This document shows, piece after piece, positions 741 to 16,990 of a DNA stretch of 64,000 bases (position 1 is its first letter; every line of letters begins with the position of its first letter). The stretch spans positions 3,038,001 through 3,102,000 of the forward strand of contig NZ_CP018937.1 in assembly GCF_002849695.1 (NCBI RefSeq). The letters are read 5' to 3'. This stretch comes from Bacteroides fragilis (GTDB lineage: Bacteria > Bacteroidota > Bacteroidia > Bacteroidales > Bacteroidaceae). The notes beneath the pieces were generated by a model. The model ran no database searches. It had not been told where the DNA came from and worked only from the letters and a program-made list of their open reading frames with translations. A program made the translations under genes and the position numbers.

Positions 741-1514
741 TCAAAACTTAAATCCGATCTTCAATGTCGGAGCCGCCAAAACACTGTAGTTATGGCTGTC
801 TGCCGACAGATCGCCAAGACCGGCTTGCGGATTATACGTAGTCTTGTTGTACGTATAAGCAAACGGATCGATTTGCGCACCGACGTAGAGGGCAGGAAGA
901 ACATAGTAATCGACACCGATAGTCAGGGCGCCACGAAGATTCCAGCTCTCGGCAACCGATTTGCCCATAGAGGTTTCTTCATCATACTTCATTTCATTTT
1001 CGCCGTAAGCAAAACCTACGCGAACGCCTGTATACCACATCAGGTTAGGAACATGCTTGATGTTGAAATAACGATCAACACCTGCCGACACATTATAGGC
1101 GAACGACTGGGCACTGGCTACGGCACGGTAGTTAGGGATTTCTCCCATATTCTCGTCTGCCGAGTTATTCATATTCGAATCGTCTATCGTGCCGGGAACA
1201 GCCGGATAACCGGGGTTATTCGTGAAGCTGACACCGCCACCCAAATTTAGTTTCCACTGATCTTTGAAGAACCAGCCCCCTTCGAAACCAACCATCAGCT
1301 TTTTGTCTGCCCAGTTGGTTGAGAGCGCTCTGACTTCATAGTCAGTCAGCAGCCCTGAAGGGGCTGTGACGTTTGTGTAACTATTGTATCCAACAGTAGC
1401 TGCTACCGTAAAGTCACCCTTTTTAGGAGTATTGTCTTTACTACAGTTCTGCGCATTAGCTGCAAGACACATCATGGGTAGAACGGCCAACACTAAAAGT
1501 CTTTTTATTTTCAT
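741..1514 (-). CDS. Exported beta-barrel protein, function unknown
   Basis: A 257-residue protein with a clear Sec signal peptide (about residues 1-21, cleavage after ANA in LAANAQ). The mature part alternates hydrophobic and polar residues, is rich in Tyr, Asn and Gly, and ends in a barrel-type terminal strand (LKIGFKF). These are marks of an 8- to 10-stranded outer-membrane barrel of the OmpW/OmpA-like sort. No enzymatic motif is seen. The gene lies 47 bp downstream of the coiled-coil lipoprotein gene on the same strand, and one terminator follows, so the two are probably one transcript and may act together in the envelope. I do not recognise a named family. Confidence 0.75.
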   Translation of the reverse strand: MKIKRLLVLAVLPMMCLAANAQNCSKDNTPKKGDFTVAATVGYNSYTNVTAPSGLLTDYEVRALSTNWADKKLMVGFEGGWFFKDQWKLNLGGGVSFTNNPGYPAVPGTIDDSNMNNSADENMGEIPNYRAVASAQSFAYNVSAGVDRYFNIKHVPNLMWYTGVRVGFAYGENEMKYDEETSMGKSVAESWNLRGALTIGVDYYVLPALYVGAQIDPFAYTYNKTTYNPQAGLGDLSADSHNYSVLAAPTLKIGFKF

Positions 1515-1561
1515 ACGATACTTTTTTTGATTTGTTGTTTATTTGCCGTTACTATTGGCGA

Positions 1562-3178
1562 TTATTCTGCAGAGTCACCTACTAAAGCTTTGATCTGAGC
1601 TAAATAATCATTGTAAATAGGTTCATTTACAGCCAAACTATTTTCAAGGTCAGCAATTAATTTCTCCTGATTTGCGATAGCCTGTTCCTCTGATACAATT
1701 GAAGCGGCATTAGCTATATTTTCATCAGCAGTAGCAATAGCTTGTTTCTGGGCTAAAATCAACTGATCGTAATCAGCTAAGCCATCAGCTATACTTTGCA
1801 ATGTATAGGCCAAAGAACTTTGAACAGAATAATTATGAGAAGCTTTATTGTAAGCAATTGCAGTCTCTACCTGTGCTTTGACGGCATTATCCATAACTGT
1901 TAATAAATTAGCATATGCTGTAGCATTGTCACCCGATACGGCAGCCAATATATTATTCCAGTTTTTCAAGCTATTTTCCCAATTCGTCACATCTGTAGTA
2001 GCACCATCAACCGCATCTTCCAGAGGTTGTATGTAAGCACTTAAATTATCCTCCGCTGTACGTAGTTCACTCAAAGCAGTATTTTTATCTGCTTCGGTTT
2101 TAGCATCATCAAATTTCTTCTGCGCATCAGTTACAGCCTTTGTCAGACTTTTATAAGTATCAGAAGCCTTTGCATCTGTCAAAGCCTTATTAGCATCTGC
2201 AAGAGCAGCTTTACTTACACTCAAATATCTTGTTTGATTAGTAATTGTCTCATTGATACGATCCAAATTAGCAGTATATTTGGTATAAGAGCGAGGCCAT
2301 ACTGTTCCATTAGTAGAATCATCGTTTGTATAATTCACAACTTCTCCTTGAATATATTCCGTATCATAGTAAGACGAACCTGCTTGCTGCAATGTCTGAA
2401 CATAAAGAGAGCTGTTCAAATTATTATATGCTCCCCAATAAGCCTGTTGTGCATTTTGATCAGCTGTATTTTTTTCACCTTTAATTTGGTTAAGAGCAGT
2501 CAATTTAGCATTAGCTTCCTGAGCCGCTTTCTCAGCGTCAGCCTTATCTTGAGTACTATACTTCTCATACTCTGCGATTAACGCCTGGGCAACCGCTTTA
2601 TTTTTTTCCTCATTAGCTATTGTTTGCTGATTACTCAATTCCACTGACACTAAACCAGCTTTCAATCTTGCCAACTGATCTTTTGCATCAATTAAACTCT
2701 GTCTATCGCTATTGATCGTTATCAGCAACTCATTAGCTTTACCTAACAGAGTTGTAATTCTTGTCTTATTGGCCTGATCTACGTCATCCAAAGCAGCAAT
2801 AAGGGCAGCTTTAGCAGTTTCCAAAGAAGCTTTGGCATAATTCAATTGTGCTTCAGCATTAATTTTAGCAGCTTCAAGTTCTGCCTCCAAAGCAGCCTGA
2901 GCTTTCTCCAATAGGATTTTTTGTTGATCTGCTTGAGCCTGCGCCAATTCGGCTTGTGCTTTTTGATAGGCGGCTTCAGCCTCTTTTATTGCAACTTCAG
3001 CCGCAGTAATAGCTTTCTTAGCATCCGCATTCGCATTATTCATGTTCGCAACAGACTCTAATTGCTTTGCTTTTGCGTTACGCACCGCTGTTACCGATGC
3101 TGATTCGTCGTTGTCTACGCAAGCTCCCAGTGACAACGCACCCAGAAGCACTGCAACCATCATGAGTTTCTTTTTCAT
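1562..3178 (-). CDS. Ala-rich coiled-coil lipoprotein
   Basis: A 538-residue lipoprotein: the signal peptide ends in the lipobox LGAC (Cys20) and is followed by DNDE, acidic residues of the kind found at Bacteroides lipoprotein surface-export signals. Residues about 30-245 form a long, Ala/Glu/Lys/Gln-rich coiled coil (repeats such as AEVAIKEAEAAYQKAQAELA). A less regular Tyr/Asn-rich segment (about 250-300) follows, then further coiled coil (about 310-400 and 480-535). This hairpin-like layout suggests an extended rod anchored in the outer membrane. It is the first gene of an operon with the barrel protein downstream. No catalytic motif is visible. A role in cell-surface architecture is inference only. 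Confidence 0.8.
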   Translation of the reverse strand: MKKKLMMVAVLLGALSLGACVDNDESASVTAVRNAKAKQLESVANMNNANADAKKAITAAEVAIKEAEAAYQKAQAELAQAQADQQKILLEKAQAALEAELEAAKINAEAQLNYAKASLETAKAALIAALDDVDQANKTRITTLLGKANELLITINSDRQSLIDAKDQLARLKAGLVSVELSNQQTIANEEKNKAVAQALIAEYEKYSTQDKADAEKAAQEANAKLTALNQIKGEKNTADQNAQQAYWGAYNNLNSSLYVQTLQQAGSSYYDTEYIQGEVVNYTNDDSTNGTVWPRSYTKYTANLDRINETITNQTRYLSVSKAALADANKALTDAKASDTYKSLTKAVTDAQKKFDDAKTEADKNTALSELRTAEDNLSAYIQPLEDAVDGATTDVTNWENSLKNWNNILAAVSGDNATAYANLLTVMDNAVKAQVETAIAYNKASHNYSVQSSLAYTLQSIADGLADYDQLILAQKQAIATADENIANAASIVSEEQAIANQEKLIADLENSLAVNEPIYNDYLAQIKALVGDSAE

Positions 3179-3331
3179 AATCTCAATTTTTAGTGTTAAT
3201 AATATAAATAATTCAATATGTGTGTAATACCTTAATTCTTCTCTATTCTATCAAAATTGGCTATATTTGCCAATGGTTAACATACTTTTTAAAGAACCCT
3301 TTAATAATTGGGTATATTTAATTGTTCGAAG

Positions 3332-3362
3332 CAAATGTAGATATTATAATTATACTAAGCAA
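3332..3362 (-). promoter_or_regulatory. Promoter of the coiled-coil lipoprotein operon
   Basis: Read on the reverse strand, TACATTTG (3339-3332) matches the Bacteroides -7 box TAnnTTTG. A TTG (3362-3360) lies 20 bp upstream as the -33 element. The predicted start near 3325 leaves a leader of about 150 nt before the ATG at 3178. Confidence 0.6.
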
Positions 3363-4147
3363 GAGTTAAGAGAAAAAAAATTAGAGTTTTTTGTATAAGT
3401 CTGAGTTTTAATGGAATCCAAGTAAAAAGAAAAAGCCTAAACAGCTTCTTCATACCTATATAATAATAAAATAAGGAAATATCCACGTAATATAGAACTG
3501 TGAAAAGAGCCCTCGCTATAAAAGAAAAAACATAATCATTATATAATAATGTATATCATAATATATATTAAGCAAAAACACATGCAGATTGATATGATGA
3601 AAGCAATATTCCGAAATCCATATCAAAAAATCGCAAAAAGTCATTTCAGACTAACTGTTCATTTTTCCAAAAACTGTAAAATAGGAGTGAATCGGCAAGT
3701 CATATGCGAAAATTTGGCCTGTTTATATAATGAAATCCGAAAGCCGTCAGCAGGAAGTTAACATCGTAAAAACAAAGAACCAACTTCCTGGCAAGAGAAA
3801 GTTAATGTCCTGAAAGCAGGAAGTTAACTTCCTGCTTTCAGGACATTAACTTTCAGAAAGAAAAGCAAGGTTAAGTCGTAGAAAAGAGAATAAATTGACC
3901 CTGAAAAAGAACGTTTTCTTCCGGAAGCCAATCAAAAACGAGCATCATGCGAATAGCATTTTGAAATCACGCCAACATTTTGAGCTTCAATTTTATTACA
4001 ATACCCGCCAATTCCCATTCATCTTGAGCAAAATATTCCCCAAACACAAGACGAATGAATTATGCTATCGCAAAATCTACGCATTTTTATCCTGTCTGTC
4101 TCCTTTGGGACCGTAAAAAAGCGTTTCTACGCATTTTCAAATACAAA
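3363..4147. other. AT-rich intergenic stretch without a credible gene
   Basis: About 785 bp of AT-rich DNA. Short open frames (for example 3549-3761 and 3895-4116 on the plus strand) show no family features, no plausible start signals and unnatural composition. The only clear structure is the palindrome at 3797-3854 with related copies of its core at 3750-3762 and 3778-3790. A short direct repeat (TCTACGCATTTT) recurs near 4076 and 4126. Confidence 0.5.
3797..3854. repeat. 58-bp perfect palindrome
   Basis: The 29-nt left arm, from GAAAGTTAATGTCC to AGGAAGTT at 3825, is the exact reverse complement of the right arm (AACTTCCT to GGACATTAACTTTC at 3854), with no spacer. Just upstream are a direct copy of the core, GCAGGAAGTTAAC (3750-3762), and an inverted one, GAACCAACTTCCTGG (3778-3792). 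There is no U-run after it, so it is not an ordinary terminator. Confidence 0.9.
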
Positions 4148-4518
4148 ATGACAGATTGTATAAGTGATCGTGAAAAACAAGTTGTATTGCCTTACCTCAA
4201 TAAGATAAAAAGTTGAATTGAGAACATTAAATGGAGTGTAGACTATTCCAGTTGGCTTCCGGATAATATAACGGTTGCCTATTTAAAAACTAAAGAGAAT
4301 AAACCTATCAATAACCAGCCAGAAAGCCCATTGCACGGACATCTATCAAATGATAGCGGGAAAGCAAATCCCTGGTCCCCTTCGACAAACGAGTGGTTCG
4401 GATTGATTATGTCCAACAGATAAACGATCATGCTAAGTTGGTAGGTTGCCGTCTCTTTCTGTACGGCTTCATTGTCAACGACTATCTGCGCATGGAAAAT
4501 TGTCTGTTCTATTTGTAA
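4148..4518 (+). pseudogene. Decayed gene fragment of unknown family
   Basis: From ATG 4148 the frame reads MTDCISDREKQVVLPYLNKI, meets TGA at 4214-4216, then reads on in protein-like fashion (IENIKWSVDYSSWLPDNITV). After a likely frameshift near 4350-4375 a second frame is open to TAA at 4516-4518 and reads KSLVPFDKRVVRIDYVQQIN ... LRMENCLFYL. Both stretches look like real protein, so I read this as one gene broken by a stop and a frameshift. I do not recognise the family. Its end abuts the broken end of the TOTE primase fragment on the opposite strand, which suggests a rearrangement junction near 4519-4526. A competing 142-codon frame on the reverse strand (4707-4279) runs through both remnants and looks artefactual. 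Confidence 0.35.
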
Positions 4519-4519
4519 T

Positions 4520-4822
4520 AGATGTTTCAAAGAAAATCCAAACATGTGCTCCGTTGCCCGAACGAGAGCGTTCGATGTAACAAGGGATTTTCCATTCTTT
4601 GCAAACACAAACAAATGCAAGTACATCGTTTTGATAACCGTGTTCACAACTCTTGTCATCAAAGTCAGTACATAGAAGCAGGTGTTATCATACATTATCG
4701 GATACACACCTACAACATCTCTACCGAAACCATCTTTTCCCGCAAGATGGTTATAAATATACTCTTCAGTCAGTGATGCAAATAGACGATTGGGGCATTC
4801 TTCGTACGATAATGTTATGGTT
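4520..4822 (-). pseudogene. Remnant of a TOTE conflict-system primase gene
   Basis: Reverse-strand translation just after the HTH gene gives YEECPNRLFASLTEEYIYNH, then LAGKDGFGRDVVGVYP and DNTCFYV. After a frameshift near 4668-4672 it gives TDFDDKSC, and then CYIERSRSGNGAHVWIFF. This is the order seen in the archaeo-eukaryotic primase domain of TOTE-type helicase-primase proteins: a Cys-rich lead, IYNHLxGK, the metal-binding DFDD motif, and the ERSRSGxGxHVW motif carrying the sxH histidine. The N-terminus, the third catalytic motif and the whole helicase part are missing. Homology stops near 4526, where the unknown remnant of the opposite strand begins. The assignment rests on remembered family motifs. 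The fragment is certainly non-functional as an enzyme. Confidence 0.75.
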
Positions 4823-5107
4823 TTAATCCAAGACTTTTTGAGCGACCTTTATTGCTTCTTTTTTCGAATTATCATTGTCCTCTTCAATAGCGTCAAGTAC
4901 TTTGTCTGCAAGCCATAGCGTTAAGAGTTCCTTTTCATCAACCTTAAATTGTTTGGCAAGGGTAATTACCTACTCACGTTTTGCTCTTCTATCGCCACGT
5001 TCAATTTTGCTAAACATAGGAGTGTCTATTTCAAGAATAGCTGCTAATTGCCGTTGAAGCAGTCCTTGCTCCTCTCTTAATTCTTTTATTCTCTTTCCCA
5101 ATAACAT
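4823..5107 (-). pseudogene. XRE-type regulator gene with an internal amber stop
   Basis: A 94-codon frame from ATG 5107 to TAA 4823 is intact except for codon 46, TAG at 4970-4972. The first part, MLLGKRIKELREEQGLLQRQ to MFSKIERGDRRAKRE, is an HTH of the XRE/C-protein type. The part after the stop, VITLAKQFKVDEKELLTLWL, is the usual continuation, where family members often have RRE-Q-V; one C-to-T change of CAG would create the stop. Truncation comes after helix 4, so the dimer part is lost. It starts 11 bp after the DUF1016 stop and was probably co-transcribed with it. Similar HTH genes accompany restriction and other defence nucleases. Confidence 0.85.
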
Positions 5108-5117
5108 ATGTAATGAA

Positions 5118-6260
5118 TTAAAGAAGTTTTTCTAATTCTTCTACAGGAGGGAGCAGTCTCTTTAGACGCTCATCCATATCGGCAGTAGTCTTATATGTCG
5201 CCACTCCCATAGGCTTGTCATAGTCTTGGATTACATACTCAACAAATTTCTTATTGGCACTCTTGCAAAGAATGATTCCTATAGACGGATTCTCATTAGG
5301 CTTGCGTACTTCATCATCCAAAATACGCAGATATGCCGCCAATTGCCCTAAATACGAGGTCTTGAACGGACCATCTTTCAATTCCACACAAACAAGAGCA
5401 GCCAACTCTCTATTGAAGAATAGCAAGTCCGGAAACTCCTCTACACCGAATTTTTCCAAATGATATTGGTTGCCTACAAATGTAAAATCTTTGCCGAATG
5501 TCATAATAAACTCTTTCACATTCTGCACTATGCTTTGTTCGATTACCCGTTCATCTCTATCCTTGTCCCTAACGAACAACTCTTCGGTGTTGATAAAGTC
5601 AAGCAGATATTCATCTTTGAACATCGTGATTGCACGATATGCCTGTAGCTGATCAGGGATTGTTTTCTTAAAATTATTTGTCAACTCACCTTGATGACTA
5701 TACAAATCGTCATTTATCATTCGTTCCAAATCCTCTACCTTTGCTTTTGTGTCAGCTACGAATTGAATGTAGAATTTTCGTTGCTCTGTATCCTTAACTT
5801 TGCTGATGATAACATAATGGTGGGTAAAACCAATGTCCATAAATGCTGCAATCGGGAAATTTGCATCTATCTTAAACTGCACTGTAGGCAATTCATTCGT
5901 TCCAACGAACGAATTATGCTTTTCGCTTATTAAATTGTTCGTTTCAACGAACGAATTGTCCGAAAGCATCTGCCACTCCTCATAGAATGTACGCATCTTT
6001 CGTAAGCTTGCTGCGGAAAAGCCTCTTAACCCGGGTAATTCTTTACGAAGTTGTTCGCTGATTGCTTCAATGAATCCCGTGCCCCAATTCTTATTGCGGG
6101 TATTCACAGAGACAAATCGTCCAATGCCGTAGTAAAGTGCTAATTGTTCTTGGTTAATTATAGCCAAAGCTCGTTGTTGGCTTTGCAAAATCGCACCTTT
6201 AATTGCTTAAACAGCATTGGCGAGTTCTGTATATTTCATTGTATTAATAATATTGCTCAT
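5118..6260 (-). pseudogene. DUF1016 (YhcG-like) PDDEXK nuclease gene with an early ochre stop
   Basis: The longest open part (6188-5118, from a TTG codon) encodes 356 residues. Its N-terminal domain has LALYYGIGRFVSV and the stretch WGTGFIEAISEQLRKELPG followed by GFSAASLRKMRTFYEEW, the DUF1016 N-terminal pattern. Its C-terminal domain has FPDLLFFN followed by LVCVELKDGPF, giving the D...ExK signature of a PD-(D/E)xK nuclease. Extending upstream in frame, ATG 6260 (or 6239) gives MKYTELANAV, then TAA at 6207-6209, then AIKGAILQSQQRALAIINQE, which is the expected start of the family. So the natural start is cut off by one nonsense codon. Restart at TTG 6188 could still make a protein lacking only the first helix. 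The cargo context (broken HTH and primase genes) argues for decay. Confidence 0.8.
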
Positions 6261-6678
6261 TTTAATATCAAATTATTGTATATATCTTGAATAGTCAATA
6301 TTTGACAACAAATTTAGTAAAAAGATTCTATAAGCAACCTTAGTTGTCCATTATTTTTTCTCCTAACCCAATAAATAGACTACTATCTTTTTCTTTCTGT
6401 TGGCATAAACTATTCAAAACCTTTAGCCTTATCTTGCTTGCCTCGTATGTTTTAAGCCTAAACGTATTGATATACAAAATGATGCAGAACGATGAAACGT
6501 AATGCCACAAAGAAAAATCAGACTCTGTCATCGGGTAATGATTTGAAAACTGTCCGCCTTCATTCCCTTGCTTTATTGCCATTGTTCCTATTTCCGAGCT
6601 TCTCTGTTTAATGCGTTATGAATCAGTTCTTAACGCATATATTCACTTTTTTGTTCCGAGAGGGGCAGCCGGATGTAA
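6261..6678. other. Intergenic stretch between the decayed locus and the sigma-54 promoter
   Basis: No supported gene. One reverse frame (6582-6340) ends in a helical, protein-like tail (YEASKIRLKVLNSLCQQKEK) but its first half is unnatural, and I recognise nothing in it; it could be the 3' end of a lost gene of the defence locus. A small inverted repeat, ATGCGTTA/TAACGCAT, lies near 6611-6637. Confidence 0.4.
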
Positions 6679-6717
6679 TTGTGCGATAGTGAACTGCCTT
6701 TGTGCGTGTCCGCACAA
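6679..6717 (+). promoter_or_regulatory. Probable enhancer site for a sigma-54 activator
   Basis: TTGTGCG (6700-6706) and CGCACAA (6711-6717) form a perfect 18-bp inverted repeat with a 4-bp centre, and a third half-site TTGTGCG lies at 6679-6685. The sites sit about 55-95 bp upstream of the -24 element, the usual place for an NtrC-family activator. The cognate activator is not in the window. Confidence 0.65.
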
Positions 6718-6771
6718 TAACAAGAGAGCGTTCGAGAATATATTGTATTATATAATAGCTATTTAGCGACA

Positions 6772-6787
6772 TGGCATGATTCTTGCA
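6772..6787 (+). promoter_or_regulatory. Sigma-54 (RpoN) promoter
   Basis: TGGCATGATTCTTGCA fits the -24/-12 consensus TGGCACG-N4-TTGCW with one change in the -24 box; GG (6773-6774) and GC (6785-6786) are exactly 10 bp apart. Predicted transcription start is near 6797, some 17 nt before the ATG at 6815. No Bacteroides TAnnTTTG box is nearby. Confidence 0.8.
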
Positions 6788-6814
6788 AGCATAAAGAAAA
6801 AACAGTAATAGAAC

Positions 6815-9124
6815 ATGATTAAGCATTACTTGAAAGTAGCATTACGCAATCTAATGAACTTTAAAGTTCATAGTCTTATTTCGGCTGTTTGTTTGGCGAT
6901 AGGCATCACCTGCTTCTGTATGATGAATCATTTTATTGATGCCGTATCCGGTAAGATTGAACTGTCCGATGATAATGAATACAGCATCCGGTTGCTCGGA
7001 GCATCTTCCCAGACAGCCGCCGATATCTATTTGTTTAAGGAGGATTTTGATTATCTGAAAGGGTTGCCTATAGCGGGCATAGATCCCCTTGTGGCCTCTT
7101 CTTATAGCAATGAAAGAGAAATTACGGCCATTGACAAAAAACAACGGGAACTGCCGTTTCTGGTGTCGTTCAAAGATGTATCATCTAATTATTTCACCTA
7201 TAATTCGCTCCAATTGAAGTATGGCAATCAAGAGATAACAGCTCCCAACGAGGTGATCGTCTCCGAATCGTTTGCCCGGAAAGCATTTGGACAAGAAGAT
7301 CCGATAGGTCAGGTCATCCGTCAGGAGACAGAGGCTAACGACTCGTCTGATCTTGTGGTGTATAAAATTGTCAATGTTGCTTTGACAGAAGAAAAGGATC
7401 ATCGTGGAAAAACAATCGATTGTTATTTTCCGCTGTCCGCAAAGTCCCGTACTCCACTCTGCATCAGATCACGTCTCACCGGACAAACCACGACGGAAAG
7501 CCTGAATAAACAGTTAAAGAACCTGACCTGGAAGCATGGAGAACAGGATATCTATTTATATGCTTTCCTGGAGTCGGAACAGAATGACAGTGTCCAAAGA
7601 ACGATAAGTATTCTGCTCGCCCGGTTTATAGCTTCGCTGATTTTATTGTCGGGGTTGATCAATTTTCTGAAGTTCATTATCCAGATGTTCTATAACCGGC
7701 AACGAGAACTGGTGCTTCGCAAATGTATCGGTTCGGACATCAAAGGATTGTTTGCCTTGCTTTTCGCCGAAATCTTCTGGATGCTATCTGTCGCTTTCTT
7801 TCTGTCATTGGCCGTGACGGAAATCACCCTCTCTCTGGCATATACATACATCCGTCCGGAAGACATGATCTCATTCTCTTTGGTAGATCTATATGGTTCA
7901 CAATTAGGATTGTATCTCGTTTTGCTGTTGATCTGCATGCTCGCCATTCTTTATCCTATCTATCGGTTACGCCGGTTGAGTGTCCTCCATTCGGTCGTGC
8001 AGAGACAGAAGCGGCACGTGTTCCGCAATTTCATGATTGCTTTACAATTGGCGATTTCCATCCTTTTCACAGGCGGTGTATTTGGCATAACGCTTTTGTT
8101 CGATGAGATGTTTGAAGGAATGTACCATCCTTTGAGCACGGAAGAAGAGAACCGGGTGATTTCAATATCGGTCAATACCATACGCATGCAGAAAAACATG
8201 GATGCCATTCTTTCGGATATCCAGTCCTTGTCCGAGATAACCGATCGGACATCCGCTTTCAATACTTTCGATGCCGATGTTTATACCTACATGACCTACA
8301 TGAAAAACGGAAAGCCGAGAGGAAGTGTGCTGATGAACGAAGCAGAACCCCATTATTTTGAGTTCTTCAAGATCCCGTTCTCCGGAAAATTGGTGGATAA
8401 GGATGCTCAAGGCTTTGTTTATATAAGCGAACAGTTTAAAGAACAATTGCAAAAGGATAGTATAGAAGGTAGTGTCACGTTGGATGGCAAAGAATACCAG
8501 ATTGCCGGAACTTACCGCGCACTGAACAAGGAAAATGCTCAGAACAGGGCAGTCGGTTCTGTCTTTTTAGTTAATCCGCAAGCTTATACCTATTACTTCA
8601 AAACCCTCCATTCGGATATTACTCCGGTCGCCCTGGAAAAAATAACAGAGATCTGCCGGCGTTATGTACCTGAGACATTGCCTCTTGATATTCGTAATAT
8701 GGGTGATTCCAAACAGTCCGTTATGGGAACTGTAGCACTCTTGCAGACAGCATCCCTGTTGTTGGCAATAGTCAGTATCCTCTTGTTGATATTAAGTATT
8801 TATTCCGGAATCTCCATGGATGTGGTAAACCGTCAAAAGGAAGTAGCCATCCGAAAAATAAACGGAGCTACCCCGAAAGTGATTGCCCTGTTATTCGGCA
8901 AAATCTATCTGATCATTTACCTCTCTGTCTTCGTAATTATCTATCCGTTAGTACGATTGGTGTTGATAGGGATCGCACAAAAAAGTAGTTTGAAAAGCAT
9001 ATATAGTTGGAATTGGGGAATCTTGTTGTTCTTCACGATGGCCCTTTTGATCTTCTTGGTTACGGCATACAAGATTTATAAAGTAATGCACTTGAATCCG
9101 GCAAGTGTTTTGAAACAGGAATAA
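6815..9124 (+). CDS. FtsX/MacB-type ABC transporter permease
   Basis: Inner-membrane permease of 769 residues, about the length of the doubled Bacteroidales FtsX proteins. First half: membrane segment 20-40, periplasmic MacB-type core domain about 46-265, three membrane segments about 268-385. The second half repeats this, with a segment at about 400-425, a periplasmic domain about 430-640 and three C-terminal segments. The cytoplasmic coupling motif occurs twice: RQRELVLRKCIGS (about 290-302) and RQKEVAIRKINGATP (about 672-686). Such permeases work with a MacB/LolD-like ATPase in mechanotransmission or export, not classical transport. No ATPase or periplasmic adaptor gene is next to it, so its partner is encoded elsewhere. 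A sigma-54 promoter lies directly upstream. Confidence 0.9.
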   Translation: MIKHYLKVALRNLMNFKVHSLISAVCLAIGITCFCMMNHFIDAVSGKIELSDDNEYSIRLLGASSQTAADIYLFKEDFDYLKGLPIAGIDPLVASSYSNEREITAIDKKQRELPFLVSFKDVSSNYFTYNSLQLKYGNQEITAPNEVIVSESFARKAFGQEDPIGQVIRQETEANDSSDLVVYKIVNVALTEEKDHRGKTIDCYFPLSAKSRTPLCIRSRLTGQTTTESLNKQLKNLTWKHGEQDIYLYAFLESEQNDSVQRTISILLARFIASLILLSGLINFLKFIIQMFYNRQRELVLRKCIGSDIKGLFALLFAEIFWMLSVAFFLSLAVTEITLSLAYTYIRPEDMISFSLVDLYGSQLGLYLVLLLICMLAILYPIYRLRRLSVLHSVVQRQKRHVFRNFMIALQLAISILFTGGVFGITLLFDEMFEGMYHPLSTEEENRVISISVNTIRMQKNMDAILSDIQSLSEITDRTSAFNTFDADVYTYMTYMKNGKPRGSVLMNEAEPHYFEFFKIPFSGKLVDKDAQGFVYISEQFKEQLQKDSIEGSVTLDGKEYQIAGTYRALNKENAQNRAVGSVFLVNPQAYTYYFKTLHSDITPVALEKITEICRRYVPETLPLDIRNMGDSKQSVMGTVALLQTASLLLAIVSILLLILSIYSGISMDVVNRQKEVAIRKINGATPKVIALLFGKIYLIIYLSVFVIIYPLVRLVLIGIAQKSSLKSIYSWNWGILLFFTMALLIFLVTAYKIYKVMHLNPASVLKQE

Positions 9125-9168
9125 AAACGACCTCTGTCGCGTCTGCCTGTTATGAGGGTGTGTCCAAC

Positions 9169-9216
9169 TGAAGTGCCCCCAAAAGTTTTGTGTCTGACTT
9201 TTTGGGGGGCACTTCA
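9169..9216. repeat. Inverted repeat, terminator or IS-end remnant
   Basis: TGAAGTGCCCCCAAAAG (from 9169) is mirrored by CTTTTTGGGGGGCACTTCA (to 9216), an imperfect hairpin 45 bp past the FtsX stop. It could end that transcript. The arms also resemble the terminal repeats of some Bacteroides insertion sequences (CCCCCAAAAAGTT with GACA). No transposase is present. Confidence 0.55.
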
Positions 9217-9342
9217 TATTTTATTCGCTACCAGAATGAAGAAGTCTTTCAAATTTCATTATAATATGGGTAAATAATGCGTTTTCACTCAACTTTCAAA
9301 ACGAAAGATTGTTTCCAAAACATGTAATTCAAATGATCTCTT

Positions 9343-10608
9343 ATGAACCAAAAGCGCAATCAAACCAAAGTCGTGAACGTATTTACCGTATTTACGGTAA
9401 TGCTGATATTGTATTTTATCGTAGGACTTTTCACCGTCATCAATCAACAGTTCCAGATACCGTTACAAACAGCTATGCTGCCCCACGACGGTAACATCAC
9501 CAATGCATTGGTGACAATGCTGAATTTTTCATGGTTCCTTGCCTATCCCCTATCCGAAGGATTCGGGACACGATGGCTGGAAAAATACGGATACCGAAAA
9601 ACGTCCTTTCTTGCCTTACTGATACTTATCGCCGGACTGGCCATCTACGAAGCAGCGGTGCTTTTCCATATATATACCCCCATGCAGGTCTCCATCATCG
9701 GCAACGATATCTCTGTCGGCTTTTTCATTTTTCTGATCGGCTCTTTCGTGATCGGTGTAGCCGCGACGATCCTGCAAGTAGTGCTCAATCTATATCTCAC
9801 GGTCTGCCAGATTGGTAAAACGACGGCCTTGCAACGACAGATGATTGGTGGAACGAGCAACTCGATCGGCATGGCCATCGCTCCGTTGGTAATCAGTTAT
9901 CTGATATTTCACGGAACTCCTTTGCATGACATCGTGACAAAGCAATTTATTATTCCGCTGATCGTATTGATTCTGATCATGTTGATTGTCACTCTTTTTG
10001 TCGGCAGAATACAAATGCCTTCTATCGACAATGTAGGCCAAGCTCCGGGAGAGAAGCTGGATAAAAGCGTATGGTCATTCAGAAACCTCAAATTAGGGGT
10101 ATGGGGTATTTTCTTCTATGTAGGTATCGAGGTTGCTGTCGGAGCCAATGTCAATATGTATGCATCCGAACTCGGAGGATCGTTCGCCTCGAATGCCACG
10201 CATATGGCCGCTTTATATTGGGGATTGCTCTTATTGGGGCGTTTCTTAGGATCCTTTATCAGGCAAATCCCTTCCGAAAAGCAACTGGTGATAGCCTCCA
10301 TCGGAGCCATCATGCTACTCGTGCTTGCCATGCTGACGGGCAATCCTTGGATACTGACGGGCATAGGCTTTTTTCACTCTATCATGTGGCCGGCCATTTT
10401 CACATTGGCAACCGACAAACTGGGGAAATATACCACTAAGGCATCCGGAGTGCTGACAATGGGAGTCATCGGAGGAGGTATTATTCCTCTTCTGCAAGGA
10501 ATCTTTGCCGATGTGATGGGTGGCAACTGGCTTTGGACATGGCTGTTGGTCATTGCCGGAGAAGCTTACATTTTGTATTATGGCCTAAACGGATACAAGC
10601 AACATTAA
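9343..10608 (+). CDS. MFS sugar permease, FucP-like
   Basis: A 421-residue inner-membrane protein with about 12 hydrophobic segments. Its layout matches the FucP/GlcP-like sugar:proton symporters of Bacteroidetes: N-terminal FTVINQQFQIPLQTAM in the first helix region, YPLSEGFGTRWLEKYGYRKT (the A-motif loop between helices 2 and 3), a long helix 3-4 region, and a GxxxG-rich C-terminal half (TMGVIGGGIIPLLQGIFADV). In this family the usual substrates are fucose, glucose, galactose or N-acetylhexosamines; the substrate cannot be fixed here. It is monocistronic. Its stop codon overlaps the stop of the convergent nitroreductase gene (shared bases 10605-10608). Uptake of sugar freed by the PUL at 25-31 kb is possible but not shown by context. 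Confidence 0.85.
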   Translation: MNQKRNQTKVVNVFTVFTVMLILYFIVGLFTVINQQFQIPLQTAMLPHDGNITNALVTMLNFSWFLAYPLSEGFGTRWLEKYGYRKTSFLALLILIAGLAIYEAAVLFHIYTPMQVSIIGNDISVGFFIFLIGSFVIGVAATILQVVLNLYLTVCQIGKTTALQRQMIGGTSNSIGMAIAPLVISYLIFHGTPLHDIVTKQFIIPLIVLILIMLIVTLFVGRIQMPSIDNVGQAPGEKLDKSVWSFRNLKLGVWGIFFYVGIEVAVGANVNMYASELGGSFASNATHMAALYWGLLLLGRFLGSFIRQIPSEKQLVIASIGAIMLLVLAMLTGNPWILTGIGFFHSIMWPAIFTLATDKLGKYTTKASGVLTMGVIGGGIIPLLQGIFADVMGGNWLWTWLLVIAGEAYILYYGLNGYKQH

Positions 10609-11333
10609 ACTCTATGATAAACTTCATTAAACGGTACTCTGCCCCGTTCACCCCAGATTCCTTTATTTCCATCCCGTATTCCGCAGCCGATCACCATGTT
10701 CACTTCGGCACCATGAGGTAATTTCAACAGTTTCTTCATTTGTTTACTGTCAAAGCCCTCCAAGGGACAAGTATCATACCCTTCGTTGGCCATTGCGATC
10801 ATAAATGTCTGAGCGGCAAGTGCACAAGATTTATGGACGACGACACGCATATCACCCTCGGAAACTTCACGCACAATAGGGCGGAAAAGGCCGATGGCTT
10901 TAGTCAATAAAACTCTCAAAAAACCCAGTATGCCAAAGAAACGGGCATAAAGAAACGGCATTAACTTTCCATAATAGAGTTCTCTGTCCTTGATACGTTT
11001 TTCCTGACGCTCCCGGGGACTATTTCGTCTGACGTTCCCTCTTTCAAAATCGAGTACAAACCTGGCCCTGCTCCGATATAAATCCTGACGTGTAACAAAA
11101 ACGACAATCTCTGAAGCTGTTGAAGTCGCAGTCTGGTCAAGACAGGCTTTGGATATCTTTGCCAGCAACTCCGGTTGCGTGACCTGATAAAACTCCCACA
11201 ATTGCATATTTGAACTGTTGGGTGCCAACGTTGCCAGTTCCAGACAATGTTTCACCTTTTCCGGATCCAACTGTTTCTCTCTATCAAACACCCGTACAGA
11301 ACGACGATAATTTAAGACTTCCTCTAAATTCAT
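10605..11333 (-). CDS. Nitroreductase-family FMN oxidoreductase
   Basis: A 242-residue cytoplasmic flavoenzyme. The N-terminus carries the FMN phosphate-binding RRSVRVF (residues 10-16) and the ATLAPNSSNMQLWEF segment (about 35-49) of the nitroreductase fold. A late GxxxC-type segment (MVIGCGIRDGNKGIWGERGR) fits the C-terminal FMN/dimer region. An insertion of about 50 basic and hydrophobic residues (about 105-160) is longer than in NfsB-like proteins. It presumably reduces quinones, nitro compounds or other electrophiles with NAD(P)H. It starts 2 bp after the stop of the DJ-1-like gene upstream, so the two form an operon, which supports a stress role for both. Confidence 0.85.
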   Translation of the reverse strand: MNLEEVLNYRRSVRVFDREKQLDPEKVKHCLELATLAPNSSNMQLWEFYQVTQPELLAKISKACLDQTATSTASEIVVFVTRQDLYRSRARFVLDFERGNVRRNSPRERQEKRIKDRELYYGKLMPFLYARFFGILGFLRVLLTKAIGLFRPIVREVSEGDMRVVVHKSCALAAQTFMIAMANEGYDTCPLEGFDSKQMKKLLKLPHGAEVNMVIGCGIRDGNKGIWGERGRVPFNEVYHRV

Positions 11334-11335
11334 TT

Positions 11336-12046
11336 TTATCTGATCAAATTATTTTTCCCATTTAATTGTTGCATTACCACCTCCGCCATTTCTTTTGAAC
11401 TGAACGGGTTTTGCCCCGTTATCAGATTATGGTCCACCACTACTTTTGAGGTCATCGGAATTAATGCTTTTTCGTAATCGGCTCCTCTTTTTTTCAACTC
11501 TGCTTCAAGATCAAAAGGTACCTCCTTCTTTCTCCCGGCAACACTTTCCTCAAACCAGGAAAATCCTGTGAGCCTTTTATCTTTTATAAGATACTCTCCG
11601 TTGGACAATTTGACATTCAAAAGCCCACTTACACCATGGCAGATCGCGGCTACTATTTTAGTATGCTCATAATGCTCCTTAATAATCGTCTGCAAAGTGG
11701 TATTATTAGGAAAATCATACATCGTACCATGTCCGCCCGCCAGATAGATACAATCAAACAGCTCTCCGGCAACCTCGTCCAAACTCTTCGCATGTCGCAA
11801 CTCATTCCTAAATTCAGGATCATCCCAATACTCTTTCGAAAGTTTGTCTAAAACCATCGGCTTTAAACTTTCCGGATCAACAGGGACGTTGCCACCTTTG
11901 GGGCTTGCTATGATTATTTCATATCCCTTTTCTTCCGCACAATGATAGATGTGAGTCAACTCACTGAGCCACAATCCTGTTTCCAGATTTCCATCAGCAT
12001 ACATATCCGTTCCCGTTACAACAGCCAGCATTTTCAAAGTATCCAT
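11336..12046 (-). CDS. DJ-1/PfpI family protein, Hsp31-like
   Basis: Class I glutamine-amidotransferase-like protein. I place the start at ATG 12046 (MDTLKMLAVVTG), which begins right at the first beta strand; an ATG 36 bp upstream (12082) adds residues that do not fit the fold. The protein then has 236 residues. The nucleophile elbow is AAICHGVSG with the catalytic Cys, preceded by YLAGGHGTMYDFPNN, the conserved Gly-rich loop of Hsp31/YajL-type proteins. The C-terminus (VVVDHNLITGQNPFSS) is also typical. Members act as glyoxalases, deglycases or holding chaperones; which applies here cannot be seen. It is the first gene of an operon with the nitroreductase. Confidence 0.85.
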   Translation of the reverse strand: MDTLKMLAVVTGTDMYADGNLETGLWLSELTHIYHCAEEKGYEIIIASPKGGNVPVDPESLKPMVLDKLSKEYWDDPEFRNELRHAKSLDEVAGELFDCIYLAGGHGTMYDFPNNTTLQTIIKEHYEHTKIVAAICHGVSGLLNVKLSNGEYLIKDKRLTGFSWFEESVAGRKKEVPFDLEAELKKRGADYEKALIPMTSKVVVDHNLITGQNPFSSKEMAEVVMQQLNGKNNLIR

Positions 12047-12182
12047 ATATATTCTTTTTATAGTGACGTTATATAGGAACATGGCTGTAACCTACTTGTT
12101 ACTTTACCAATCAGACTTTTAACTTTATTTTCAACCACTTGTGACCCGGCTTCTTAAAACATCCACATTCTTTGCCGGGATA

Positions 12183-13022
12183 TCAGCCAACTTCAAACTT
12201 CTGCTTCGCACATTCGTATCCTTCTTCATACAGATCGGTCAGTTTATGGATGTCACGTTCAATGCGATCGACAACAACCGGTTTCCGGGGCCGGATAACA
12301 GTTATATTTCCCTCTTCTTCCATACGCTCAACCATCTCCAATTGTTCGTTGTATACAGCACAACGCCTGCTCAACGCTTCACGTATCTTCGGATATTTAC
12401 GATAAACAAAAGAGGGAACGCGGATGTCTTTATTCTCTTTCCGATAACCGCGGTTCCGGGTAAGAACAACCACATTGTTCCGATATCCATCGTCTATGGC
12501 ACGTTGCAAAGGAATAGAGTCGACAATACCTCCGTCCAGCATGGGAATACCGTCTACATAAGCTATGGGGCAAACGAAAGGAAGGCTGCTGGAAGCACGG
12601 ACAATGTCGATCACACGGTTTTTATCCTCTTTCTCCTCAAAATAAATGGCTTCTCCGGTCAGGCAATTGGTAGTCACCATCACATAACGCCCGGGAGAAT
12701 TGAAGTATGCCTGATAATCGTATGGAAGTATATGCTCGGGAAACTCCGTAAAGAGGAGATCGAAGTCCAGAATATTCCGTTTCTTAAGCAGATGTTTCAG
12801 CCCGATATAATGATATTTTTCTAACAGGTCTATATTACTGTACTTGGCACGCCCACGCTGTCGGGACATATACGAAAGGCCGTTACAAGCCCCTGCAGAC
12901 ACCCCGATCGTATAAGGAAAACGAATATCATGGTCCATTAGATAGTCCAGTACCCCACAGGTAAACACTCCGCGCATACCTCCGCCTTCAAGCACCAGAC
13001 CGGTTTGATTATCAATTGTCAT
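12183..13022 (-). CDS. Patatin-like phospholipase
   Basis: A 279-residue lipid acyl hydrolase without signal peptide or membrane segments. The oxyanion-hole loop is LVLEGGGMRGVFTCG (about 9-23), the nucleophile elbow GVSAGACNG carries Ser at about residue 42, and the second catalytic residue is the Asp in MLDGGIVDSIPL (about 165). This is the Ser-Asp dyad of patatins. The C-terminal 80 residues are a charged helical extension common to the bacterial YjjU-like subgroup. The gene lies 37 bp downstream of the antiporter gene on the same strand and may be its operon partner. The substrate is unknown; phospholipid deacylation is the family's usual role. Confidence 0.88.
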   Translation of the reverse strand: MTIDNQTGLVLEGGGMRGVFTCGVLDYLMDHDIRFPYTIGVSAGACNGLSYMSRQRGRAKYSNIDLLEKYHYIGLKHLLKKRNILDFDLLFTEFPEHILPYDYQAYFNSPGRYVMVTTNCLTGEAIYFEEKEDKNRVIDIVRASSSLPFVCPIAYVDGIPMLDGGIVDSIPLQRAIDDGYRNNVVVLTRNRGYRKENKDIRVPSFVYRKYPKIREALSRRCAVYNEQLEMVERMEEEGNITVIRPRKPVVVDRIERDIHKLTDLYEEGYECAKQKFEVG

Positions 13023-13059
13023 CTTTCATAATAATTAATCGTTAGAAATTAGTAGTACC

Positions 13060-15249
13060 TTAGTTTTTCTTAGGCCGCCGGATGACTAACAAGGAAGGAA
13101 AATCACGGAACACTTCTTCCTCTTCGGACAACTTCGTATAGGACAGGTGGCTCATCACAAGCAAGCCGTCCTTTGCTACCGAAGCCAGATCGACGGCGCT
13201 ACTAAAGGATTGCGTTTGTATTCTGGAGGAATATTTGGCCAATATCGGATCTGTAGACTGCCGGAAAGCCTCATCATCCGTGTCGAAGAGGAAGAGATGT
13301 ACCTGTGCGCCCCCCTCCAGCATACTCTCAAGATAAGTAAGCAGAAAAGCATCGATCACCCCACCCAACACAAAAGAGACGGGGACGTTTCCGCTATAAC
13401 CACGGTTGACAAAAACGGCTACCGGACATTTCACCTGTTCCATCACATCATCTATCTTATCACGAAACAGAGAAAGCCATAACACTCCACTGCCTCCGGC
13501 AGTATCCGGTCTGTATTTACTACCGGCTCCCAGCAAAAACATGTCAGGACGCTCTTTTCGTGCCAACCGGATCATATCCTGCACCAATTTATCGGTCACC
13601 CGGTAACGGTTTTCAACACTAAGTCCCAACTCGGAAGCTTTTTCGTCCACCAGCGAGAAACTATCACGGGCATATTGCTCTGCATTCAATGGGTTTAAGT
13701 CCGTCCCCACCGTAAAATGGGCAGCGACCACATGGGCAGCTTTCATCTTTTTTCCAAATAATAAGAAAAAGACGGAAAGCAGGCTGCGTCCCGACTCCGG
13801 TCGTCCAAAACAAAAGACCAACTTCAACTTAGCCGATAAACGTTCTTCGCGACGGGCAAAAATCTGTTCAACAAAATGCAGCAACGGGGTGGTCATGAAG
13901 GTAGTCACCAGAGCCATAATGACCAGGATTACAAAAATAGAAGGTGGAAGCACTCCCATTTCGTATCCGATGTTTAATGCGACCAACTCCATCAATCCCC
14001 GTGTATTCATCAGCGTACCGATAGTAAAACTGTCTTTCCACGACTCTCCCACCAAACGGGCGGCAACAGCGCAACCACCCAGTTTTCCTGCCACAGCAAC
14101 CGTAATCAACAACAGGCAGACTCCCCAAAGCGCCGGGCTGTTAATCAATCCGATCTCCGTACGCAATCCGGTAAAGGCAAAGAAAAGCGGAAGGAAAAAG
14201 ACAAGAGCAATGTCTTCCACTTTTTCCATCATCACCTTACGAAATCCCAGGCTGGGAGGCATCACGACTCCTGCCATGAAGGCCCCGAACAGGGCATGAA
14301 TACCGATAATCTCGGTAAGCGTAGAGGAAATAATCAAAATCAGCAGAATCAGGGCCACAAATGTTTTATTAATCACCTCCTGATTGGCATACACCTCTCC
14401 TACCTTCTTGAGAAACGGCCGTACCACCATAAACATGATTATGATATAAAGGGCAGTCAGCCCGATGGCATAAAGAGCGCTGGCAAATGTTCCGGCCTTG
14501 GCAATGGCTATGACTACAGCCAGCAAACACCAGGCAGTGACATCATCATTGGCAGCCGAAGCTATGGCCAAAGTTCCCAAAGGAGTTTTCGTCATATTCC
14601 GTTCCTGAATGATGCGGGCCAATACCGGGAAAGCGGTAATACTCATAGAGATACCGATGAAAAGGGCAAACGGCAGGAAACTTGTCTGGGCAGCGGCATA
14701 TTCTTCATAAATCCAATAAGATGCGACGATGCCGAGGAAGAACGGAACCAATATACCTGCATGGCTGATGACCAATGTTTCGTTGATCTTGTTTTTAAGT
14801 ACACTGAAATCGAGTTCCATTCCGATCACAAACATGAAAAGTACCAGACCGACCTGGCTCAATAATTCAAGATTCGTAAGGGACTCCGGAGGGAACAGGG
14901 CCTGGAATACATCCGGAAAGAAATAGCCCAACACGGAAGGTCCCAACACAATTCCCGCCACAATCTCACCAATCACCCCCGGCTGCCCGATATGTTTAAA
15001 CAGAAAACCAAAAAGCCTCACCATCAACAAGACAGCGATTATCTGTATCAACAATATACTTAACGGATGATGCAGATTGTCGGTGACAAACTGACAAAAC
15101 ATAGCGAAAGGAGTCTCCTCCGCAACAGCTGATGATGCTACCACATGGTGTGAAAAACGGTCACCTTCCTCGATAGCCATGTAAATAAGTGCCCCGAAAA
15201 GGAGCAACATGATCACATAAATAAGATAATTTTTTTTGGCTCTCTGCAT
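13060..15249 (-). CDS. CPA2-type Na+(K+)/H+ antiporter with universal-stress-like C-terminal domain
   Basis: A 729-residue inner-membrane protein. One N-terminal segment (8-26) is followed by about 12 transmembrane helices (about 62-450). The exchanger core shows GQPGVIGEIVAGIVLGP (helix 2-3), MFVIGMELDF, and the acidic ion-binding pair in ASAANDDVTAW. HALFGAFMAGVVMP and MNTRGLMELVALNIG are further CPA2 signatures. Residues about 475-729 are cytoplasmic and resemble two weak universal-stress-protein domains, a layout known from Bacteroidetes cation/proton antiporters. It exchanges a monovalent cation for protons in pH or salt homeostasis. It has its own -7 box at 15282-15289 and is followed after 37 bp by the patatin gene. 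Confidence 0.9.
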   Translation of the reverse strand: MQRAKKNYLIYVIMLLLFGALIYMAIEEGDRFSHHVVASSAVAEETPFAMFCQFVTDNLHHPLSILLIQIIAVLLMVRLFGFLFKHIGQPGVIGEIVAGIVLGPSVLGYFFPDVFQALFPPESLTNLELLSQVGLVLFMFVIGMELDFSVLKNKINETLVISHAGILVPFFLGIVASYWIYEEYAAAQTSFLPFALFIGISMSITAFPVLARIIQERNMTKTPLGTLAIASAANDDVTAWCLLAVVIAIAKAGTFASALYAIGLTALYIIIMFMVVRPFLKKVGEVYANQEVINKTFVALILLILIISSTLTEIIGIHALFGAFMAGVVMPPSLGFRKVMMEKVEDIALVFFLPLFFAFTGLRTEIGLINSPALWGVCLLLITVAVAGKLGGCAVAARLVGESWKDSFTIGTLMNTRGLMELVALNIGYEMGVLPPSIFVILVIMALVTTFMTTPLLHFVEQIFARREERLSAKLKLVFCFGRPESGRSLLSVFFLLFGKKMKAAHVVAAHFTVGTDLNPLNAEQYARDSFSLVDEKASELGLSVENRYRVTDKLVQDMIRLARKERPDMFLLGAGSKYRPDTAGGSGVLWLSLFRDKIDDVMEQVKCPVAVFVNRGYSGNVPVSFVLGGVIDAFLLTYLESMLEGGAQVHLFLFDTDDEAFRQSTDPILAKYSSRIQTQSFSSAVDLASVAKDGLLVMSHLSYTKLSEEEEVFRDFPSLLVIRRPKKN

Positions 15250-15281
15250 ACAAGCATATTTTTGTGTGAAGTGTGTCTATG

Positions 15282-15289
15282 CAAAGATA
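15282..15289 (-). promoter_or_regulatory. -7 box of the antiporter promoter
   Basis: On the reverse strand TATCTTTG fits TAnnTTTG. The predicted start near 15275 gives a leader of about 26 nt before ATG 15249. No clear -33 TTTG is seen. Confidence 0.55.
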
Positions 15290-15507
15290 AAACAAACCAA
15301 AAGAAAAAATAGTTTTAGAGCGAGTTTAAATATTGATTCATATAAAAAGGCACTGAAAAGAATATATGGACACTCTGTTTACTTTCCTTATTTCCGCTTC
15401 AAAGTTCCTGTTTGTCATCAGTAAAACGAAGATACAGAGGAATAAGAAAGAATAAAAGAGAAAGATAACCAACAGGAAAACAAGATTATAACAACACACA
15501 AAATTGA

Positions 15508-15588
15508 TTTAAAACCAAAGGATTGTTGATTTAAGAGGTAAAACCCGTTAGTTAAAAACCCAGAGGACTTTGGTTTTAAACTAACGGG
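15508..15588 (-). terminator. Overlapping hairpins after the kelch-DUF4907 operon
   Basis: CCCGTTAGTT (15544-15553) pairs with AACTAACGGG (15579-15588); on the reverse strand this stem is followed by TTTTACC and can end the DUF4907 transcript. A second pair, TTTAAAACCAAAG (15508-15520) with CTTTGGTTTTAAA (15568-15580), uses overlapping bases, so the two stems compete. The rest of the 375-bp gap (15250-15624) holds the antiporter promoter and no gene. Confidence 0.6.
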
Positions 15589-15624
15589 AACATAGTTTCG
15601 AATGTATCCTAAAACACCTGTTCA

Positions 15625-15957
15625 CTAATCGCCGGTAATTCCCTGCCCCTTCAGGTCGGCAGCCGATATTGTAAAATCATTTCCCTGCCTGATCCGTTCC
15701 AATACCAGGTTGCCTACTTTCCGGGCATCTTCTTCCAAAGCAAACCCTTTCCGCCCCGGAAGGGAAGGTATGTATGGTTGGCAGATCACTACCCGGTCGC
15801 CACAAAGAATCTGATAACCATATCCGTTCCCATTTTCTGTTTCAATTACTTTGAGACGATACGGACAAGCTTCATGCCGATCATAGAAAAAGAGGACTGA
15901 AACAGCGCAGGCAACGCATATCATACAAAGTAGCTTCTTATTCCTCTTCATATTCAT
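15625..15957 (-). CDS. DUF4907 family exported protein
   Basis: A 110-residue protein with an N-terminal hydrophobic segment (about 8-25: LLCMICVACAVSVLFFY) that is either a signal peptide or an anchor. The mature part has the DUF4907 pattern: GNGYGYQILCGDRVVICQPY followed by IPSLPGRKGFA, an EDARKVGNLVLERI helix and a terminal segment ISAADL. The function of this family is unknown. Its start overlaps the end of the kelch gene by 20 bp, so translation is probably coupled. DUF4907, kelch, DUF4270 and a barrel gene lie together here as a divergent cluster, which suggests joint envelope work. Confidence 0.75.
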   Translation of the reverse strand: MNMKRNKKLLCMICVACAVSVLFFYDRHEACPYRLKVIETENGNGYGYQILCGDRVVICQPYIPSLPGRKGFALEEDARKVGNLVLERIRQGNDFTISAADLKGQGITGD

Positions 15958-16990
15958 AAGGTTTCAGTTCCCAGGTATCGTCAAAGTAAGAACTCGAACC
16001 ACTGCCACCCGTCGCAACAATACCCCGGGTCCCGGTAGAGAAGCAAACAGCATGAATACGGGTACTTCCTTCAAACGCCGTCAGGTCGTCACCTTCCCAA
16101 AGATCGGTTGCCGGATCATAAATCCAATAATTCGAATAATAGCTTCCTCCGGCAGTGGAACCCAGAGTCAGATAAGCTTTTCCATCGATCACAAAACTGA
16201 CTCCATAGGAACGGACAATAGATGTATAGTCATCATCGTAATCATCATCACTCGTATTGGCGATGTCTCTCAGTTGTGTCCAAGGTGTAGCAGCGGAAGG
16301 GTCGAAGCACCAGAAGTCCGATACATCGGAATTATTGTTCTGCCCTCCGCAGACATAAGCTTTCCCGTCGATGACAAATGCCGTACCTCCCTGACGCTTT
16401 TGTCCTCCGAAACCATTCACGATAGTCCATTGTGAACCGGCTGCGGCAGTAGGGTCGAAACGATAAAAGTCCTTCAGGTAATTATCGTTGTAACCGGTTC
16501 CCACATAACCATAATTATCAATCCCGAAGCCAAGGGCATAATAGCGGGCTCCTCCCTTGAAGTCGTCCATCTGCCTCCAACTATTCGTTTCCGGATTATA
16601 CTCCCACGTATCGGACAGGTATTTCTGATCGGGATTGTATCCGGTAGTGACATACCCTTTGCTACCTACCGAGAAGCCGGTGGCAGCATTGCGGACCGTA
16701 CCGGGCATATCGGCACGCTGAGTCCACCAGTCATTGTCGATATCATATTCCCAGGTATCGGCGAGCCGGGTCGTTTTTCCGTTATAGCCTCCGCAGATGT
16801 ACCCTTTATTACCAATGGTGAAACCGGCAGCATCGGTCCGTGCTACCCCGTCAAAGTCCGAACGCCGGTACCATACTCCGGCCGTATAGGAAGCATCTTC
16901 CGTACAGGCACACAAACAAAAGAGTATGGCACAAAGCACCAATACTCCGGACGCGGACTTACTCGCTACAGTTTTTTCTATTCCAGTCAT
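15938..16990 (-). CDS. Kelch-repeat lipoprotein
   Basis: A 350-residue protein with a signal peptide ending in FCLCAC; the lipid-bearing Cys is near residue 29. Residues about 40-345 contain six kelch-type repeats, each with a GF/V-IGxKGYVxxGYN strand pattern (for example AAGFTIGNKGYICGGYNGKT, ATGFSVGSKGYVTTGYNP) followed by WEYDPxxNxW. They predict a six-bladed beta propeller at the outer membrane. Propellers bind proteins or glycans; no catalytic residue of galactose oxidase is apparent. It is the first gene of an operon with DUF4907 and is transcribed away from the DUF4270 gene. Confidence 0.85.
   Translation of the reverse strand: MTGIEKTVASKSASGVLVLCAILFCLCACTEDASYTAGVWYRRSDFDGVARTDAAGFTIGNKGYICGGYNGKTTRLADTWEYDIDNDWWTQRADMPGTVRNAATGFSVGSKGYVTTGYNPDQKYLSDTWEYNPETNSWRQMDDFKGGARYYALGFGIDNYGYVGTGYNDNYLKDFYRFDPTAAAGSQWTIVNGFGGQKRQGGTAFVIDGKAYVCGGQNNNSDVSDFWCFDPSAATPWTQLRDIANTSDDDYDDDYTSIVRSYGVSFVIDGKAYLTLGSTAGGSYYSNYWIYDPATDLWEGDDLTAFEGSTRIHAVCFSTGTRGIVATGGSGSSSYFDDTWELKPYEYEEE

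Follow-up and report, generated by a model that had tools for sequence, protein, structure and literature searches.

Three damaged reading frames lie next to one another on the minus strand of the window (the whole 64,000-nucleotide stretch analysed, G000:C1:3038001-3102000, from a genome of 5.3 Mb), and the question they raise is whether they are the remains of genes that once formed a set. A sequence-only reading had taken them for a DUF1016 nuclease, an HTH regulator and a TOTE-type primase, left over from a former anti-phage or conflict system. A decayed defence-type locus is indeed present, but the commoner partner of this HTH gene proved to be AlbA_2. We propose, with a probability of roughly 0.7, that the locus is what remains, after decay, of a Bacteroidaceae cassette with the order "AlbA_2 or DUF1016 - small XRE HTH - primase-helicase", here in its DUF1016 form; the primase-helicase of this cassette consists of an AEP plus a ResIII-type SF2 helicase.

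Composition of the decayed locus

The locus occupies positions 4311-6260 and reads DUF1016/YhcG, HTH and AEP-TOTE primase piece, followed by two scraps (Table 1). Gene identities, order and breaks can be read directly, and a less broken relative has the same order. The Pfam matches of the DUF1016, HTH and primase frames are far beyond chance and confirmed three decayed frames on one strand in the order proposed. After its stop, the DUF1016 frame matches PF06250 (5.5e-43) and PF17761 (8.6e-24), and the DUF1016_N and YhcG_C nuclease domains that mark the YhcG/DUF1016 family both lie on this open part; the PADLOC candidate PDC-S02 was matched at 5.5e-112, and no solved structure matched at E<=0.01. 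The in-frame TAA is codon 18 from the outermost start (6258-6260) and codon 11 from an inner ATG (6237-6239). The TAG of the HTH gene was likewise found in frame, with HTH_31 (4e-7) before it and no meaningful Pfam match in the second half of the gene.

Table 1. Features of the decayed locus, with positions in the window
Feature	Position	Strand	Basis and remarks
DUF1016/YhcG PD-(D/E)XK nuclease gene, stop at 6207-6209	5118..6260	-	PF06250, PF17761, PADLOC PDC-S02
Small XRE-type HTH gene, 94 codons, stop at 4970-4972	4823..5107	-	HTH_31; stop common to G018
AEP-TOTE primase, upstream piece, ~codons 114-159 of the L159 protein	4663..4800	-	PF22548
AEP-TOTE primase, downstream piece, ~codons 157-209 of the L159 protein	4517..4675	-	PF22548; holds DFDD, SGNGAH
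Conjugation coupling protein scrap (T4SS-DNA_transf/TraG type), 25 codons	4438..4512	-	92% identical to L242
Abi_2 gene scrap	4311..4437	-	Two short matches to L239

The primase remainder is frameshifted and truncated at both ends, as had been suggested, and its similarity to TOTE primases was borne out in both frames by PF22548 (4.3e-8 and 7e-14; 33.5 and 52.4 bits against a curated cut-off of 27). A profile search of the whole genome returned the same two pieces (8.4e-16 and 4.1e-7). Together they cover about codons 114-209 (~96 codons) of the 959-aa protein of L159, the better-preserved relative described below, and the frameshift falls where, compared with L159, a short stretch has been deleted; the site is not a homopolymer. 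The motifs had been thought legible only with two frames joined; this did not hold, since DFDD and ERSRSGNGAHVW share the single frame 4675-4517 and the other frame contributes only the piece 4800-4663. A complete AEP-TOTE domain with its helicase half is absent from the window copy. Searched against the whole genome, the L159 protein matched only three places, a distant intact TOTE gene (53% identity) and the two window pieces, so the helicase half of the window copy is gone.

The Abi_2 and coupling-gene scraps adjoin the primase stump of this inactivated and partly deleted defence-type locus. No plasmid or phage record was matched by blastn with window positions 4300-6300. Reassignment of both stop codons was judged not to apply, one being TAG and the other TAA in an ordinary bacterial genome. 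Close by lies an element of ~600 bp (3578-4187), of which G000, G017 and G018 have copies at 78-80%; a perfect 58-base palindrome (3797-3854) matches other genomes too.

A sister genome with a different primase loss

A sister genome, G018, is closer than L159 to the window DUF1016 gene (99%) and HTH gene. Its locus (L036) aligns at 97.4% over window positions 4812-9207, 97.1% over 10599-16365 and 90.0% over 1258-3568, with other DNA between the left blocks. The DUF1016 gene is whole in G018 and interrupted in the window, and G018 shares the HTH stop and has no more of the primase gene than its first codons, up to a junction; PF22548 was matched nowhere in this genome. The window lacks these first codons but retains others, and the two genomes have therefore lost different parts of the primase. 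Where the window has its left scraps, a second, divergent DUF1016 gene is found in G018 (L036 4248-7579), with a gene for a 654-aa protein that resembles, by eye, NUDIX plus radical SAM.

The HTH gene differs between window and G018 by three synonymous and one non-synonymous changes (binomial 0.03, uncorrected and from few changes); non-synonymous changes are thus few despite the common stop, and four changes are too few to press. Among the neighbouring genes, dN/dS against G018 is 0.03-0.15 on the right flank and an unusually high 0.52 for the gene at 1562-3178, which encodes a 538-aa protein, alanine-rich and coiled-coil-like by eye.

A better-preserved relative among TOTE loci

For the survey, genome contigs were searched with five TOTE proteins in a set with one genome per species. 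The best 80 of at least 509 relatives, 20 loci from the genus and the genome's own TOTE locus gave 101 loci, which were profiled for DUF1016, HTH, AlbA_2 and TOTE (L099 gave no TOTE match). Within these limits, 12 rows, or nine distinct loci (L080=L148, L084=L202, L086=L151), have HTH immediately ahead of TOTE; the HTH gene of L080 is broken into two frames, and L098 has a decayed TOTE gene. The order DUF1016-HTH-TOTE, on one strand and with short gaps, occurs in one of the 101 (again with the best 80 of at least 509 relatives), namely L159, a Bacteroidaceae MAG (RGIG4567) from roe deer rectum. Its primase-helicase is whole (AEP-TOTE 1.4e-96, ResIII 1.2e-20), as is its HTH gene, and its DUF1016 gene lacks the N-terminal part, at an integrase gene. 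In the same sample L159 is also the closest locus to the window, at 92% for DUF1016, 85% for HTH, and 84% and 93% for the two primase pieces.

The combination had been suggested as possibly intact in related strains. It is better preserved in L159, but no copy with all three genes whole was found among the 101 loci (best 80 of at least 509 relatives) or in G018. In L090 (G057), a different DUF1016 gene (29% identity, internal stop) is followed after 33 bp by a partial TOTE gene; this locus (6396-12327) holds two TOTE genes, one of them partial. L153 has no HTH gene, and its DUF1016 gene lies on the opposite strand, 668 bp downstream.

A quick tree was built from 97 rows of the AEP region, with L096, L185 and L193 dropped for coverage and with L093, L095, L097, L098, L099 and duplicates left out. 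The window fragment, which covers 25% of the tree columns, groups with L159 (support 92), and both group with L153 (99, starred). All three belong to a starred group of 20 rows in which every one of the 14 HTH-linked rows is found, and the HTH label requires 3 changes on the tree, compared with 13.3 on average after shuffling. The intact TOTE gene of the window genome (L052 7991-10903, 970-aa primase-helicase without the window-type HTH) belongs to another starred clade, and on that ground the remnant was rejected as a copy of it.

An upstream slot held by AlbA_2 or DUF1016

Members of the HTH family were found in 24 of the 158 genus genomes (E<=1e-8) and in 67 of the 399 genomes of the taxonomic family (E<=1e-15). 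We compared 40 distinct HTH loci, each with flanks of ~1.5 kb (29 at family level and 11 at genus level, after two duplicates were dropped and weaker matches left out). Upstream of HTH lies a Schlafen AlbA_2 gene in 27 loci, four of these matches being weak (1e-12 to 1e-13), a DUF1016 gene in five (L106, L109, which is the window, L110, L258 and L264) and neither in eight; TOTE follows downstream in 10 of the 40. Around L110 (L039), AlbA_2 codons 1-37 precede a DUF1016 gene 79-80% identical to that of G018, and around L258 (L274) the end of AlbA_2 (~451-559) is flanked by a divergent DUF1016 (27%) on one side and HTH on the other. In L037 the DUF1016 gene follows the end of a DUF1848 gene, and DUF1848 precedes AlbA_2 in L098, L133 and L134. 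AlbA_2 is the usual occupant of the slot, and these AlbA_2 remnants together with the upstream DUF1848 suggest that DUF1016 genes from different lineages have come to occupy it instead. A further step, that the two are interchangeable modules with equivalent jobs, that DUF1016 lineages (window; L274, 27%; L130, 24%) entered repeatedly, and that window and G018 record the loss of the primase-helicase with the slot gene kept, is a tentative suggestion that we consider possible but doubtful.

Alternative explanations

Sequencing or assembly errors in an intact locus would suit the DUF1016 stop, seen in one assembly only. The HTH stop, however, recurs in G018, an independent assembly, and is therefore no assembly error, while the primase has lost both ends, hundreds of codons, which the L159 protein finds nowhere else in the genome apart from the distant TOTE gene; we regard such errors as very improbable. 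Chance is a more substantial rival: DUF1016, HTH and primase might have come together on a scrap heap in a defence island without ever being a functional set. Unrelated gene scraps do lie alongside, DUF1016 is common (108 of 158 genus genomes) and mostly solitary where looked at, and the HTH family stands upstream of many kinds of gene, including methyltransferases (by eye). The last two points also speak against a single system, and against the cassette it counts that DUF1016-HTH-TOTE was seen in one locus besides window and G018, with DUF1016 truncated there (best 80 of at least 509 relatives), that L153 has no HTH gene although it shares a starred tree set with L159, and that the match of the HTH to control proteins is weak. 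Against a chance assembly stand the locus of another organism, L159, which has the same order with short gaps and is the closest in all three parts (within the same best 80 of at least 509), and the clustering of HTH-TOTE adjacency on the tree; chance appears quite improbable.

The DUF1016 gene could also be live, a solitary nuclease beside dead neighbours that is translated from the TTG at 6186-6188 or carries a very recent stop. Past the TAA, 356 codons are open from this TTG, and the gene differs from that of G018 by seven synonymous and four non-synonymous changes (dN/dS 0.14; binomial chance under neutrality 0.0022, uncorrected and from just 11 differences). Solitary DUF1016 genes are moreover usual: among the first 32 DUF1016 loci, 23 lack any ORF of >=80 aa on the same strand within 120 bp; the broken HTH of window and G018 escapes this test. 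On the other side, translation from the TTG would omit 24 N-terminal residues present in the G018 protein, among them the first part of the DUF1016_N domain, and a live gene seems unlikely. The substitutions nevertheless suggest that selection probably acted on DUF1016 during most of the window/G018 divergence, and for this reason the stop may be recent, or the protein may still be made from a downstream start. The early TAA agrees with the inactivation first proposed for this gene, but the break is possibly recent or bypassed.

Relation to known systems and possible function

The cassette, of which the window holds a remnant, is probably defensive, to judge from its relatives and neighbours, and we infer that its three proteins may work together. 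The primase-helicase would work on invading or unusual DNA, and DUF1016 would supply the nuclease that cuts this DNA; the HTH protein might limit expression of the set, by analogy with control proteins at restriction-modification (R-M) loci. The set as such cannot work in the window genome, since the helicase half is gone; in L159 the primase and helicase motifs are intact. A regulator that recurs directly before a primase-helicase, together with a slot for either of two unrelated proteins, makes a concrete three-gene set. As a single locus, the remnant in the window is genuine but unremarkable, the wreck of a modular cassette that was probably defensive.

Work by Aravind, Iyer et al. from 2022 is reportedly the one cited for TOTE systems. 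The acronym denotes TPR, OB, TBP and Effector (PMC12458937). No TPR, OB or TBP family was matched by Pfam in nine neighbours of L159, L084, L080 and L086, and because these partners are missing among the nine, the window locus is no TOTE conflict system as so defined; only its primase Pfam domain carries the name. The original TOTE primase-helicase label is thus right about the family of the primase domain but not about such a system. The window fragment itself, at ~96 codons, matches the AEP-TOTE primase-helicases above the curated cut-off. By profile, the closest solved primase domain is 7nqd (1.1e-16), which we take to be a CRISPR-associated primase-polymerase and whose structure record says TPR_REGION protein. 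PADLOC PrimPol matches the L159 protein at 3.6e-83, and the NCBIfam PrimPol_Msp score of 100 stays below its cut-off of 200; the L159-type protein differs from CRISPR-associated primase-polymerases in the helicase fused behind its primase.

DUF1016 has been described as a YhcG PDDEXK nuclease near KKP genes (PMC11341870, figure legend). The window gene resembles this family in both Pfam domains and the PADLOC model, and differs by its early stop and by having HTH plus primase-helicase as partner instead of R-M genes; by profiles, DUF1016 has R-M or helicase genes as close neighbours in L009, L011, L028 and L029. The HTH protein recalls R-M control (C) proteins, which are small HTH proteins that regulate their own operons, as a small XRE HTH at defence-type loci, with weak PADLOC matches in L159 (HTH_VI 1.2e-8, Control_protein 1.3e-6). 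In Bacteroides acidifaciens DSM 15896 (L202 = L084), the same HTH family stands directly before a related primase-helicase, and an AlbA_2/HATPase_c_4 protein lies upstream, where the window has DUF1016.

A fair number of genus genomes (21 of 158) encode AEP-TOTE primase-helicases, yet in the one paper found that names TOTE systems, PMC12458937, these systems receive a passing mention and "primase" and "AEP" are absent from the main text. A literature search for "TOTE conflict system", "AEP-TOTE" and "PF22548" found no paper using these terms, and a search that covered few subscription papers found neither the DUF1016-HTH-primase-helicase form nor its alternation with AlbA_2, although some literature pairs "DUF1016" with "primase".

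Upstream repeats and further observations

Across 19 upstream regions, no common palindrome was found that could serve as an operator shared by the HTH proteins. When the most frequent 7-mer of each region was compared with 1000 first-order random sequences, low counts were obtained for L149 (4), L084 (7), L039 (15) and L131 (33), a weak signal that carries no correction for the 19 tests; no such signal was seen in L086, L133 or most of the other regions. By eye, short operator-like direct repeats lie between AlbA_2 and HTH, with GACTAAA in L080 and L149 and GGTCGTA / GTCGTAA in L084 and L098; of these four, just L149 and L084 exceed the random sequences, before correction.

A conserved run upstream of AlbA_2-HTH (L098 566-4795; also L133 and L134) comprises a UvrD-like helicase, a 720-aa protein with no Pfam match and DUF1848, and may be part of a larger set. 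A relative of the L159 primase, at 42% identity, is also carried by a viral contig (L273 6001-8283).
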